Shown here one piece after another: positions 25,563 to 47,611 of a DNA stretch of 64,000 nt. The notes beneath the pieces are model-generated. The model saw only the letters and a program-made list of their open reading frames with translations. It searched no databases and was not told where the DNA came from. Location: positions 186,001 through 250,000 of the forward strand of contig JAFLCC010000005.1 in the NCBI GenBank assembly GCA_017302835.1, read 5' to 3'. Numbering within the stretch: position 1 is the first letter of the stretch; each line of letters opens with the position of its first letter. The position numbers and the translations under genes were made by a program. Source of the stretch: Deltaproteobacteria bacterium. Its GTDB lineage: Bacteria; Bdellovibrionota; Bdellovibrionia; Bdellovibrionales; Bdellovibrionaceae.

Positions 25563-25709
25563 AAACTATCTCCTTTTTTTCGACACTATGGCTTAGGACG
25601 GAACTTTAGTCTAGAAGAATAAGGGATTTTTCAAGGAATTTAAAATAAATGAATTCATTCATGACAAGATTCATGACTTTAACCATAATCATCGTTGAAG
25701 AGGGTAAAT

Positions 25710-26909
25710 ATGAAAATGAAAATAACTATTATTTTTGGAGCTGTTTTGGGTTTGGCACTCAATTTGTCGTTTATTGCTTGTCAGTCATCACAGACAAAAA
25801 AAACAGACGAGCCCGTAAAGATTGATTATTCTAAAACAGACACTCAGATTCCAGAAACTTGGCCCGAGCAGATGAAGGCTCTTGAAAATAGCTTGATAGA
25901 ACTTTATCCCTTAGTTCTTTCACCACAGGATTTTGGAAAAAAAGATAATCAAAATAAAATTTTATTTCACTTAGAACGATTAAATACCATTTCCAAAAAG
26001 GTGAATCACTCTCCCATGTCCCAGATGAATGATCCAAGTCTTGCTTACATTTCCTTTGATTTCAAAGAGCAAGTAGAACTATCGAAAAATTCTTTTGAAT
26101 CAGGGAATAAAGATTTTGCTAGATTTGAATTGTTGAAAACAACAAATTTTTGTATTGAGTGCCATACCCAATCCAATAATGGACCTAATTTCAGTTCCTC
26201 AAAAATGAAAGAAAACTTTGCTAAATTGGCTATTTTAGATCAGGCAGAAATACTCACTGCTACCAGAAAGTTTGATGAGGCTTTGGCAAAGTACAAAGAG
26301 TTTTTCGAACTCAAGGAAGTAAGTTGGGATTACCAATTCCGCGCGGAAAGCGCTCTTCATAACTCGTTGTCTATACTTGTAAGATATAAAAGGGACGCCA
26401 AAAAAACGAATGAGTTTCTTCTGCAGGCTGCTAAATCGCAGTTTCTTCCTCTCTATCTCAAAAATATCATTCAGGTTTGGTTAGAGGACATTCACACTTG
26501 GAGTTTAGCAAAAGACAAAAAGGTATCTCTAACCACATTGAAAGTATGGATCGAACGAACGATCTCTAGACGTTTTGATTATGGCAGCTTGGGCGGAGAG
26601 ATTTGGAATCAGTTAGCCATTTCTTATTTGCATGAAATGTTAGAGTCTAAACTCGACAGCAAGTCCCAGGCAGAAGTCTTTTGGTATTTGGGAAGCAGTT
26701 ATATCAATTCCTTAACTCATTTTCAAACCTCTTTGGGCGAAAAGTATTTGGAAGCTTGCATTAAGACGGTGCCTCATAGTCCGCAAGCTAAGAAGTGCTA
26801 TGCCAAAATGGAAGAATATTTGTTCGACATGTATTCTGGATCCGCAGGGACTTTTATGCCCCTCACCGAGGACATGAAACTCAAAGAGCTTAAAAAAATG
26901 GCTTATTAG
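25710..26909 (+). CDS. Lipoprotein with a c-type haem site and helical repeats
   Basis: ATG 25710 is chosen over the in-frame TTG 25695 because GAGGG lies 5 bases before it. The signal peptide ends in SFIAC, a plausible lipobox. A haem-binding CIECH occurs at residues 148-152, with a preceding helical region that has the four-helix-like cytochrome look (HLERLNTISKKVN...ARFELLKTTNFCIECH). The rest is alpha-helical with TPR-like character (AILDQAEILTATRKFDEALAKYKEFFEL). Periplasmic electron transfer or a haem-sensing role is possible; no partner gene is beside it. Confidence 0.75.
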   Translation: MKMKITIIFGAVLGLALNLSFIACQSSQTKKTDEPVKIDYSKTDTQIPETWPEQMKALENSLIELYPLVLSPQDFGKKDNQNKILFHLERLNTISKKVNHSPMSQMNDPSLAYISFDFKEQVELSKNSFESGNKDFARFELLKTTNFCIECHTQSNNGPNFSSSKMKENFAKLAILDQAEILTATRKFDEALAKYKEFFELKEVSWDYQFRAESALHNSLSILVRYKRDAKKTNEFLLQAAKSQFLPLYLKNIIQVWLEDIHTWSLAKDKKVSLTTLKVWIERTISRRFDYGSLGGEIWNQLAISYLHEMLESKLDSKSQAEVFWYLGSSYINSLTHFQTSLGEKYLEACIKTVPHSPQAKKCYAKMEEYLFDMYSGSAGTFMPLTEDMKLKELKKMAY

Positions 26910-26933
26910 AGCCTTGTCAGAGTCTCGTTTAAA

Positions 26934-26984
26934 AATGAGTCCTGTTAAATAATGAGTCTTTTTAAATAATGAGTCTTTTTAAAA
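26934..26984 (+). repeat. Three tandem 17-bp repeats
   Basis: AATGAGTCCTGTTAAAT, AATGAGTCTTTTTAAAT and AATGAGTCTTTTTAAAA follow one another without spacer, directly after the haem lipoprotein gene. A partial fourth copy (GAGTCTCGTTTAAA) precedes them. Confidence 0.85.
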
Positions 26985-27103
26985 AAATCCTAACCAATTC
27001 ATGATTTTTATTTACATTGTTGGTCTTACCTTTTAAACCTAGGCGTAAACGCTGTTTGTTTAAATGCTTGTATAAAAGCTATTTAAAGTAATGTAAGAGC
27101 CGT

Positions 27104-27235
27104 AAATGAACAGCGAATGAACAACGAATGAACAACGAGTGAATTACGAATGAACAACGAATGAACAACGAGTGAATTACGAATGAACAACGAGTGAATT
27201 ACGAATGAACAACGAGTGAATTACGAATGAAAATA
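27104..27235 (+). repeat. Tandem 11-bp repeat array upstream of pgi
   Basis: Twelve consecutive 11-base units built from two variants, A = GAATGAACAAC and B = GAGTGAATTAC, in the order (A-like) A A B A A B A B A B, then a degenerate unit. Degenerate GAATGAA-type units continue towards 27270. The 11-bp period is close to one helical turn. The array makes up most of the 380 bases between the haem lipoprotein gene and pgi; no gene is seen there. Confidence 0.9.
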
Positions 27236-27293
27236 AATGAATAAATAACCAATGAAAATGAATGAACAATGATTAAAAATGAAAAGGAGAGTT

Positions 27294-28523
27294 ATGAAAG
27301 TTAACTTTCAAAGCAAAAATAAAAATTCAGCAGAAACGACCCATCAAGCACAAAGCAGTTTAGAAGCTTTATTAAAAAGAACAGATCTTGGCTTTTTCAA
27401 GCTTCCTCAACATCCCACGATGTGGAATACGGCTCAAGAAGTGACGACAACTTTTGCTAAAAAGTTCAAAAAATTTGTCTGGGTTGGCATTGGTGGCTCC
27501 AGTCTTGGTCCTAAAAGTATGGCATTGGCTTTTGCAAACGAAGATATTTATTTTGTCGAAAATCCTGATTTAAAAACTTTGCAAAGTTTAAATAAAAAAA
27601 TGACTAACTGGCAAGAAGTAGGTTTTGTTTTCGTTTCTAAAAGTGGTACCACTATTGAGACCCTTTCTATTTTAGACTATTACCTAAGTAAATTTGAACA
27701 ACTAAAGTTAAACCTAGCAAACCACTCTCTTGTTATCACAGAATTAAAACCTAGCTCCCTCTATGATTGGGCTAAAACAAATCAAGTACCTGTTCTTGAG
27801 ATTCCCTTGGATGTGGGGGGAAGATTCTCTGTGCTCTCAAGTGTGGGGCAAGTTTTGGTTGGAATCGCCCACAAGGATATTCAGGCCTTTAGGAAAGGTG
27901 CGGCCTCTGTTTTTGAACAAAGCTATGTCCAGAACACCTTGCTTCCCATGATTCATTTTTATATCGAGGGATTAAATCATAAAGATGTTTTGTCTTACTT
28001 CTGGTATTACTCCGATTCGGCTTATCAACTGGGTAAGTGGCTCGAACAATTATGGGCTGAATCCTTAGCTAAAAAAGAATTAAGAAAAGGAGCCAGTCAT
28101 ATTCCTTATGTGGCATCGGTTCCCGTCGTCGCCCTTGGTGCCAATGACCAGCATTCGGTGCTTCAACAAATGATGGAGACTCAATTACAAAAATCAGTAG
28201 TGGTTCATCGATTTACAGAGAGTGAAGAAATGGCAGAGCTATTTCCAAAGTCTCACTTCAAAGAAACAAGTCCTTTGCAAAATAAAAAATTTGGGATGTT
28301 ATTAAAAACGGAAGCCCAAACCATGACCGAGAGCCAAAAAGAAGTGAATAATCATGTCATGGAACTTCAATTGGAAACCTTAAATGAATTTACAATGGGT
28401 CAATATTTTATGACCTACAAACTCATTGTAGGAGCCCTTGGTGAGTATATGAATATTGAAGCATTCAATCAACCAGGCGTAGAGTTAGGAAAAATCATCA
28501 CCAAAAAAATGTTAGCCAATTAA
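27294..28523 (+). CDS. pgi: Glucose-6-phosphate isomerase
   Basis: Interconverts glucose-6-phosphate and fructose-6-phosphate in the cytosol. Conserved blocks: WVGIGGSSLGPKSMALA, VFVSKSGTTIETLS (phosphate-binding SxSGTT), the EQLWAESLAKKELRKGAS region, and the closing FNQPGVELGK. At ~410 residues it is a shorter bacterial form than the E. coli enzyme. The frame opens at 27279, but ATG 27294 follows AAGGAGAGTT and is preferred. tal starts 18 bases downstream, so the two form an operon. The tandem repeat array lies upstream. Confidence 0.93.
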   Translation: MKVNFQSKNKNSAETTHQAQSSLEALLKRTDLGFFKLPQHPTMWNTAQEVTTTFAKKFKKFVWVGIGGSSLGPKSMALAFANEDIYFVENPDLKTLQSLNKKMTNWQEVGFVFVSKSGTTIETLSILDYYLSKFEQLKLNLANHSLVITELKPSSLYDWAKTNQVPVLEIPLDVGGRFSVLSSVGQVLVGIAHKDIQAFRKGAASVFEQSYVQNTLLPMIHFYIEGLNHKDVLSYFWYYSDSAYQLGKWLEQLWAESLAKKELRKGASHIPYVASVPVVALGANDQHSVLQQMMETQLQKSVVVHRFTESEEMAELFPKSHFKETSPLQNKKFGMLLKTEAQTMTESQKEVNNHVMELQLETLNEFTMGQYFMTYKLIVGALGEYMNIEAFNQPGVELGKIITKKMLAN

Positions 28524-28541: not shown

Positions 28542-29276
28542 ATGACAACTCAGCAATTAAAGTCCCCTTTTCAAAATAAAATTAAAATCTACACTGATGG
28601 TGCTGATAAAAAATCTATGCTCGAAATGGCTGCGAACCCCTATGTGCAGGGATTGACGACGAACCCTTCTTTAATGAAAAAGGCCGGAATTTCTGATTAC
28701 GTTGAGTTTTGCAAGGATATTTTAACTACTATTAAAACCAAGCCCATTAGTTTTGAAGTTTTTGCTGATGAGTTTTCAGAAATGAAAAGACAAGCCCTCA
28801 TTATCAATAAATGGGCAGAAAATGTTTATGTGAAAATTCCAATTATGAATTCAAAAGGGGAAAGCTGTATTCCATTAGTAAAAGAATTAGTCCAAGCCGG
28901 AATTAAATTAAACGTCACTGCCATTTTTACTTGGGATCAAATTCAAGAAACGGTACATGCAGTGAAAGGCGGCCCACCTTCTATTGTGTCTGTCTTTGCG
29001 GGGAGAATCGCGGATAGCGGTCGTGATCCCATGCCCTTGATGAGTGTGGCTGCAGATTACTGTCGCACCTACGGTGAGCAAATTGAATTGCTTTGGGCTT
29101 CGACAAGAGAAGTTTTTAATATCGTGCAAGCAGAGCAATGTGGATGTCAGATTATCACAGCTCCGCCTGATGTGATCAAAAAGCTTTCAGGATTCAACAG
29201 ATCCCCTTTGGATTTGAGCTTAGATACCGTAAAAACCTTCAAAGCAGACTCCGAAGCTGCAGGATTTAGAATCTAG
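28542..29276 (+). CDS. tal: Transaldolase
   Basis: Transfers a dihydroxyacetone unit between sugar phosphates in the pentose-phosphate pathway. The 244-residue length fits the short transaldolase/fructose-6-phosphate-aldolase-like group. Visible motifs: YTDGADKKSM and GLTTNPSLMKKAG (phosphate/substrate loop), the Schiff-base lysine in NVYVKIPIM, KLNVTAIFTWDQ, and SVFAGRIADSGRDP. GGAGAAAA precedes the ATG. Co-transcribed with pgi, giving a sugar-phosphate operon. Confidence 0.92.
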   Translation: MTTQQLKSPFQNKIKIYTDGADKKSMLEMAANPYVQGLTTNPSLMKKAGISDYVEFCKDILTTIKTKPISFEVFADEFSEMKRQALIINKWAENVYVKIPIMNSKGESCIPLVKELVQAGIKLNVTAIFTWDQIQETVHAVKGGPPSIVSVFAGRIADSGRDPMPLMSVAADYCRTYGEQIELLWASTREVFNIVQAEQCGCQIITAPPDVIKKLSGFNRSPLDLSLDTVKTFKADSEAAGFRI

Positions 29277-46990: not shown

Positions 46991-47611
46991 CTAAAATTCT
47001 TTTTTTTTGATAATCAATTCTTCGATGTTTTTAAGTCTTCTCTCCACTTCGATTTCTAATCGATCTTGACGCTTGTAAAGCTGATCATAGCCTTCAAGAA
47101 CGAATCGATTTCTGGCATTTTGCTCTTCCATAAGTACAGCCATTCTGTGAACTTCAGCTAATACTTTATCAAGTTTTGATTCAATTGTATTAAATCTCGC
47201 ATCGATTTCACTGAATCTAGCTTCCATTTTGTTAAACCTTGCATCAATTTCGCTGAATCGGGCTTCCATTTTGTTGAACCTTGCATCAATGTCGCTGAAT
47301 CGAGCTTCCATCTTGTTGAATCTGGCATCGATGGAAGCAAAGCGGGCGTCGATTTTGTGAAATTTTGAGCTAAGTCTTTTTTCTGTAGATTTAATTTCTA
47401 GCTTCAATTCTTTTTCTAAATGAAAAAACATTCCTTGAGTAGCAACTAATTTTTTTGAATCCAAAATTGGAGATAGGGATTTTGGAGTTGCTTTCTTTTT
47501 ACTTGTTTTTAAGGAGTTCATTTTTTTCATTAATTTAGGAGCTTCTTTTTTAGAATTTTTTTCTTTAGATTTCTTTATTTTCTTCGGATCGGTTTTCATA
47601 TAAGGTGCCAT
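46991..47611 (-). CDS. Coiled-coil protein with 14-residue repeats
   Basis: 206 residues. The first ~50 are Lys-rich (KKIKKSKEKNSKKEAPK, MKKMNSLKTSKKK), followed by a long predicted coiled coil. Its middle repeats a 14-residue unit, IDARFNKMEARFSE, about four times (two heptads each; 42-bp repeats in DNA near 47190-47350). A charged helical tail follows. The pattern is seen in phage-fibre-like and DUF1640-like proteins, but no function can be given. The start codon lies inside an inverted repeat (47597-47630). ATG 47599 is an alternative start. Confidence 0.75.
   Translation of the reverse strand: MAPYMKTDPKKIKKSKEKNSKKEAPKLMKKMNSLKTSKKKATPKSLSPILDSKKLVATQGMFFHLEKELKLEIKSTEKRLSSKFHKIDARFASIDARFNKMEARFSDIDARFNKMEARFSEIDARFNKMEARFSEIDARFNTIESKLDKVLAEVHRMAVLMEEQNARNRFVLEGYDQLYKRQDRLEIEVERRLKNIEELIIKKKEF

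Follow-up and report, generated by a model that had tools for sequence, protein, structure and literature searches.

A two-variant 11-bp tandem array upstream of pgi in a member of the Bdellovibrionaceae: a probable lineage-specific intergenic minisatellite

The spacer upstream of the glucose-6-phosphate isomerase gene (pgi) contains twelve head-to-tail 11-bp units in two interleaved variants. We regard this array, with fair though by no means full confidence, as a lineage-specific intergenic minisatellite that most likely lacks a selected function; as such, it probably belongs to the known class of bacterial intergenic minisatellites. Below we describe its organization, its distribution in the genome and among relatives, and the alternative explanations against which this reading was weighed.

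Organization of the array and its genomic setting

The features of the locus are collected in Table 1; all coordinates refer to the window, i.e. the whole 64,000-nucleotide stretch of DNA that was analysed. The ten exact units (27115-27224) comprise six copies of variant A (GAATGAACAAC) and four copies of variant B (GAGTGAATTAC) in the order A A B A A B A B A B; the copies of each variant are mutually identical (6/6 and 4/4), and the two variants differ from each other by three bases per 11-bp unit. These are bounded by degenerate edge units, that at 27104 having two mismatches to A and that at 27225 three, and in the unit table the next two blocks beyond the edges have 7 mismatches. TRF delimits the array as 27105-27231 with a period of 11, 11.5 copies and a score of 163, as against a top score of 64 when the 384-bp spacer was dinucleotide-shuffled 1000 times. 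The self-match of the array is 0.79 at lag 11, 0.90 at lag 22 and 0.84 at lag 33; over lags 5-39, none of 1000 dinucleotide-shuffled versions of 27104-27231 exceeds 0.55. The rise in self-match from lag 11 to lags 22 and 33 fits a copying of blocks that is more recent than the point mutations. A three-unit RTGA pattern matches ten times in the window, always inside the array, against 0.07 expected. In sum, these are near-identical head-to-tail copies beyond chance, homogenised at the centre and degenerate at the edges, as in a minisatellite; the extent, the twelve units and the unit order given in an earlier note on this DNA were right by the unit table, TRF and the shuffles.

The same note had the array filling the pgi leader, which it does not: it takes up 132 bp of the 384-bp spacer before pgi (26910-27293), with 194 bp preceding it and 58 bp separating its end from the pgi ATG at 27294; the start was taken as the ATG behind AAGGAG, another in-frame ATG being present at 27279. 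The upstream 404-aa ORF has no Pfam or NCBIfam match, and 18 bp past its stop begins a further tandem array, of period 17. The number of ATGA words is also elevated in the rest of the spacer: there are six in 27232-27293 against 3.57 in shuffles (1.1% of 2000 reach six), and four in 26910-27103 against 0.51 expected, three of these four being inside the 17-bp array. We count this mild excess outside the array against a plain minisatellite reading.

Two further candidate identities were tried and rejected. The array is not a coding repeat: a TGA in every unit closes all forward frames within 33 bp. Nor is it a structured RNA: the centroid structure of the array RNA is devoid of pairs, and its minimum of -7.7 kcal/mol is no better than that of shuffles (z 0.83). 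Elsewhere in the window, repeats of 21, 42 and 84 bp at 47190-47358 lie within a minus-strand ORF (46991-47611) and hence represent a protein repeat.

Table 1. Features of the pgi locus (window coordinates)
Feature	Position	Strand	Basis or remarks
Upstream gene, 404-aa ORF	25695..26909	+	lipoprotein-like signal and one CxxCH (motifs by eye)
Second, unrelated tandem array, period 17, 3.4 copies, TTTAAATAATGAGTCTT	26928..26983	+	TRF score 91
11-bp tandem array, twelve units (degenerate, ten exact, degenerate)	27104..27235	+	sequence, TRF, unit table, shuffles
Possible chain of 15 mini-ORFs	27106..27304	+	read from sequence
A-rich spacer remainder up to pgi start	27236..27293	+	ATGA words kept, out of 11-bp register
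Predicted RNA hairpin over pgi start codon	27287..27309	+	-7.4 kcal/mol, z -2.99
pgi, glucose-6-phosphate isomerase	27294..28523	+	PF00342, E 2.9e-18
tal, transaldolase	28542..29276	+	PF00923, E 1.1e-43; TIGR02134 above cut-off

Distribution within the genome and among relatives

Within the 3.63-Mb genome the four-unit RTGA array is unique: all nine of its overlapping matches are at this locus, and the control gave none. GARTGAAYWAC, the single unit, is matched 15 times in the genome, ten of these in the array; the five matches outside it, against 14 for the reversed control, indicate that the unit does not form a dispersed family in this genome. To place the array among others, a 464-kb sample (the window and 20 further stretches, 12.8% of the genome) was surveyed by TRF at a score of at least 50, using ORFs of at least 100 aa as a proxy for genes. 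This recovered 42 arrays, of which 14 are non-coding and have periods of 11-41 bp. The pgi array is the highest-scoring of these 14 and the sole one with a period of 11; the 13 others, which include the 17-bp array of the same spacer, have periods of 14-41 bp. A 9-bp tandem array (L160:1283-1327) is further found in the spacer after the genome's only PF12849 (PstS-like) gene. Small spacer arrays are common in this genome, and their period is independent of the helix.

Pgi was found in 38 of the 39 genomes searched, the present one included. The nearest genomes compared, those of five relatives from the same genus, encode versions that are 54-60% identical, and none of the five has a four-unit RTGA array. 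The DNA upstream of pgi was read in seven relatives, only one of which, the same-genus genome G003, shares the upstream gene. Its neighbouring genes are orthologous on both sides (261 of 403 positions identical for the upstream gene and 203 of 240 on the other side), and between them is a 51-bp gap without an array, as against 384 bp here; by eye, this gap looks unalignable to the spacer of the present genome. The array, absent from G003, thus has the patchy presence among relatives that is typical of a minisatellite; as there is a single syntenic pair, either a gain here or a loss in G003 may account for the difference. In three same-genus genomes (L012, L013 and L014) a similar stretch of ~85 nt, GCTAACCCGCATTGGG..., is seen by eye directly before pgi. 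Searched at E up to 0.5 it matches nothing in Rfam, and the copies in L013 and L014 fold no differently from their shuffles.

Lookalike arrays in other genomes

In a cross-phylum collection of genome contigs the two-unit pattern matches 12 stretches, where a hand estimate gives about two chance matches for independent bases and more for tandem DNA. All 12 were read and five of them run through TRF; several are 11-bp arrays with ACGAATGA from unrelated phyla. A cross-phylum family of the array was nevertheless rejected. In the family of Flaviaesturariibacter two of 195 genomes match, one of which is the seed, and in that of Accumulibacter the only match among 150 genomes is the seed itself: this leaves 1/194 and 0/149 other genomes, as against three others in each family that match the reversed control. 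Among viral contigs, the three-unit pattern is found in one stretch and its reversal in none. The likeness of the units across phyla is likely to be sporadic. Within the phylum, a four-fold RTGA at 11-bp spacing occurs in 33 of 368 genomes (the present one included); by hand count the other 32 hold 51 matches against 28 for the reversed control, and setting aside 12 of the hemA type (see below) and four of one recurring sequence leaves 35 against 28.

Two observations were made on other arrays in the course of these scans. A Flaviaesturariibacter metagenome-assembled genome (G368; L040, L045 and L046) has dispersed 11-bp arrays of the form ACGARTGNNNN, with 42 two-unit matches and none for the reversed control; their unit sequence drifts, while the period is constant. 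At five of 14 loci with a period of 11, 22 or 33 (L042, L060, L084, L085 and L100), the array starts at or within ~20 bases of the stop of a candidate ORF upstream on the same strand; these 14 were picked by TGA-bearing patterns, which biases them towards adjacency to stop codons.

A minisatellite origin for the array

Centre units that are identical and edges that have degenerated are what a recent expansion, by slippage or unequal recombination, would be expected to leave. We propose that 11 bp of the pgi-upstream spacer would first have been duplicated head to tail, that one copy would then have gained three changes to become variant B, and that 33-bp (AAB) and 22-bp (AB) blocks would subsequently have been copied by replication slippage or unequal recombination. 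Being intergenic, such an array would be tolerated, and if transcribed it would merely make for a longer pgi leader. That the mechanism was slippage, that the array is young and that it has no selected function are the inferred parts of the minisatellite reading. Slippage, already brought up in the earlier note, finds support as the origin of the array in the identical centre copies, the AAB/AB blocks, the degenerate edges and the absence from G003.

Among described systems, the bacterial VNTRs and the tandem repeats in M. tuberculosis promoters resemble the pgi array in having near-identical head-to-tail copies upstream of a gene, as far as the accessible part of the source goes (PMC12817950). 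They differ from it in that the unit here is 11 bp long and has two interleaved variants; moreover, one of the M. tuberculosis cases presented in that part duplicates a 57-bp promoter region, whereas no promoter was recognised at the pgi array (PMC12817950). Literature searches on 11-bp intergenic repeats gave no match, and those on Bdellovibrio with intergenic tandem repeats and on intergenic tandem repeats with gene expression returned nothing of bearing. A role for the array is still conceivable, since no other non-coding array of the sample is as strong and the leader around it has a predicted hairpin at the start codon.

Alternative explanations

Of the functional alternatives, the one that fares best, albeit still an unlikely one, is that the purine-rich, weakly structured leader would offer ribosomes a place to stand by or load for a pgi start held in the hairpin, the unit number tuning the loading. 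The modelled RNA is compatible with this: the array RNA is open in the centroid and no better folded than shuffles, and only one of 200 shuffles of the 51-nt piece 27270-27320 is as stable as the predicted start-codon hairpin. There is a precedent in tisB, with a single-stranded standby region ~100 nt upstream of a sequestered ribosome-binding site (PMC7708055, accessible in part); however, standby at tisB also requires a 5' structure, and none was found in 27088-27320, which folds like its own shuffles (z 0.27). Further, the AAGGAG is mostly outside the hairpin, and G003 manages without an array. Transcription of the array is itself only presumed, the simple scan having placed no promoter upstream: at tool thresholds, 26850-27350 yields neither a sigma-70 promoter nor a terminator (shuffles give 2.3 and 0.3, respectively), and a relaxed promoter scan offers weak candidates only. 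A search of 26900-27320 against Rfam returned six matches, all under the gathering scores; the best (E 0.022) is a CRISPR-repeat model over the start-codon hairpin, with 24.8 bits against the 39 required.

It is improbable, in our judgement, that the array is a contingency locus, in which frequent slippage would alter the distance from a promoter or activator to pgi and thereby switch pgi-tal expression. Long near-identical arrays do tend to change copy number, and tandem repeats in M. tuberculosis promoters are given in the accessible text as varying at 10^-2 to 10^-3 per chromosome (PMC12817950); but no promoter is recognisable upstream of, in or below the array, and on/off switching of a housekeeping gene such as pgi would be unusual.

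The units might, with a comparably low probability, be head-to-tail sites for a regulator of the OmpR/PhoB or CarH/MerR type that binds 11-bp direct repeats. Operators built of such repeats exist (PMC7866108; PMC9304148, both accessible in part), the genome encodes eight Trans_reg_C matches, and 11-bp spacing appears to be used in the wider group, with ATGACA repeats so spaced conserved upstream of hemA in kin. As against this, the array is not common to G003, and no position of the 11 varies among the copies of a variant, a uniformity better explained by recent copying than by selection on contact bases. Three operator types were compared, each from the accessible part of its source. In the PHO boxes of Streptomyces, PhoP is bound to 11-nt direct repeat units (PMC7866108): there, as here, direct repeats of 11 nt stand in tandem ahead of a gene, but those reach up to six units, whereas there are twelve here and no link to phosphate genes; by eye, the DNA before the genome's only PF12849 match, the candidate pst gene, is without such repeats. 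CarH operators consist of tandem 11-bp repeats of the form nnnnTnnACAn, some degenerate ones being allowed (PMC9304148). Here too the direct repeats are of 11 bp, and variant A contains the TnnACA motif; unlike in those operators, variant B breaks it and no carotenoid gene is beside the array, and 8.5% of permuted units fit the motif somewhere. A search by PF13411, which leaves out proteins seen by PF00376 alone, recovered no CarH-like protein combining a MerR and a B12 domain, the genome's sole match showing no B12 domain even when E values of up to 1 are admitted. The third type, the centromere parC of plasmid R1, has some ten 11-bp direct repeats, located upstream of a gene and bound by ParR (PMC9426499). 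The present locus, in contrast, is a chromosomal metabolic one: parM and parR are not adjacent, pgi and tal are downstream, and the upstream gene is without a Pfam match. None of the PHO, CarH and parC types is supported at the array, and the phased protein binding suggested in the earlier note has no positive evidence, given the motif broken in B, its fit to permuted units and the want of a B12 domain in the PF13411 protein.

The hemA-upstream sites are of note in their own right. A hemA-like gene is preceded, in several of the family's genera, by direct repeats of the ATGACA type at 11-bp spacing, which account for 12 of the RTGA matches in the phylum scan; nine of the loci were aligned (L088, L089, L090, L092, L095, L097, L101, L102 and L103). 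In L088 the repeats are between the GlutR_N (hemA) and ALAD (hemB) genes, and in the present genome two ATGACA repeats are kept before the GlutR_N gene (G000:C11:52460-52476; L112). The site has the look of a conserved operator or promoter element.

We give little credence to a translational ratchet, whereby ribosomes would terminate and reinitiate through a chain of mini-ORFs towards pgi, with the unit number setting how many of them arrive. Such a chain can be read from the sequence: mini-ORFs 1-11, which start from 27106 to 27216, are of 15 nt each and follow one another at an 11-nt step with 4-nt ATGA/GTGA overlaps, and are succeeded by four irregular ones (12-15, with starts at 27227, 27237, 27252 and 27269) that reach the pgi start with no gap above 3 nt. 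Their lengths range from 3 to 11 codons. The regularity follows from there being one RTGA per unit and from 11 being 2 modulo 3, so that the TGA of any unit falls in the frame opened by the start in the unit before it. In either variant the start, the stop and the frame are preserved; of the three bases in which A and B differ, two have no effect on the mini-peptides, MNNE and MNYE. A weak Shine-Dalgarno-like TAAGAG is 6 nt before the first mini-ORF start, and according to the accessible part of PMC10666635 coupled genes most often overlap by 4 nt, and coupling needs no more of the upstream gene than its last 15 nt; there, however, the 15 nt ended a longer translated fusion and not a 15-nt gene. 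Moreover, consecutive frames with ATGA/GTGA overlaps, as expected for termination-reinitiation, also arise from 10.2% of permuted units and are kept by 22% of three-base variants of A, there is no Shine-Dalgarno sequence inside the array, and ribosomes would be lost at every step of the chain.

Least credible of all is phased DNA bending, proposed on the ground that 11 bp is about one helical turn: although the predicted end-to-end shortening is 0.287 against a window mean of 0.096, which by a wedge model ranks the array within the top 1% of the window in net bend, 41% of permuted-unit arrays in the same order (n=2000) bend at least as much as the ten-unit array, so that there is no more bend than in arrays of the same period and composition and phased bending is unsupported. 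The units are, in addition, without an A-tract of 4 or more, at 11 against 10.5 bp twelve of them drift by more than half a turn, and with none of the 13 other non-coding arrays having a period of 11, the helical-turn reading of the period in the earlier note finds no support.

Implications

As a minisatellite, the array would be a curiosity of this locus and might serve as a typing marker. Were the unit number to alter pgi-tal expression, it would instead constitute a contingency locus at a gene of central carbon metabolism; and were the mini-ORF chain translated, it would provide a natural many-step test of termination-reinitiation over ~190 nt.
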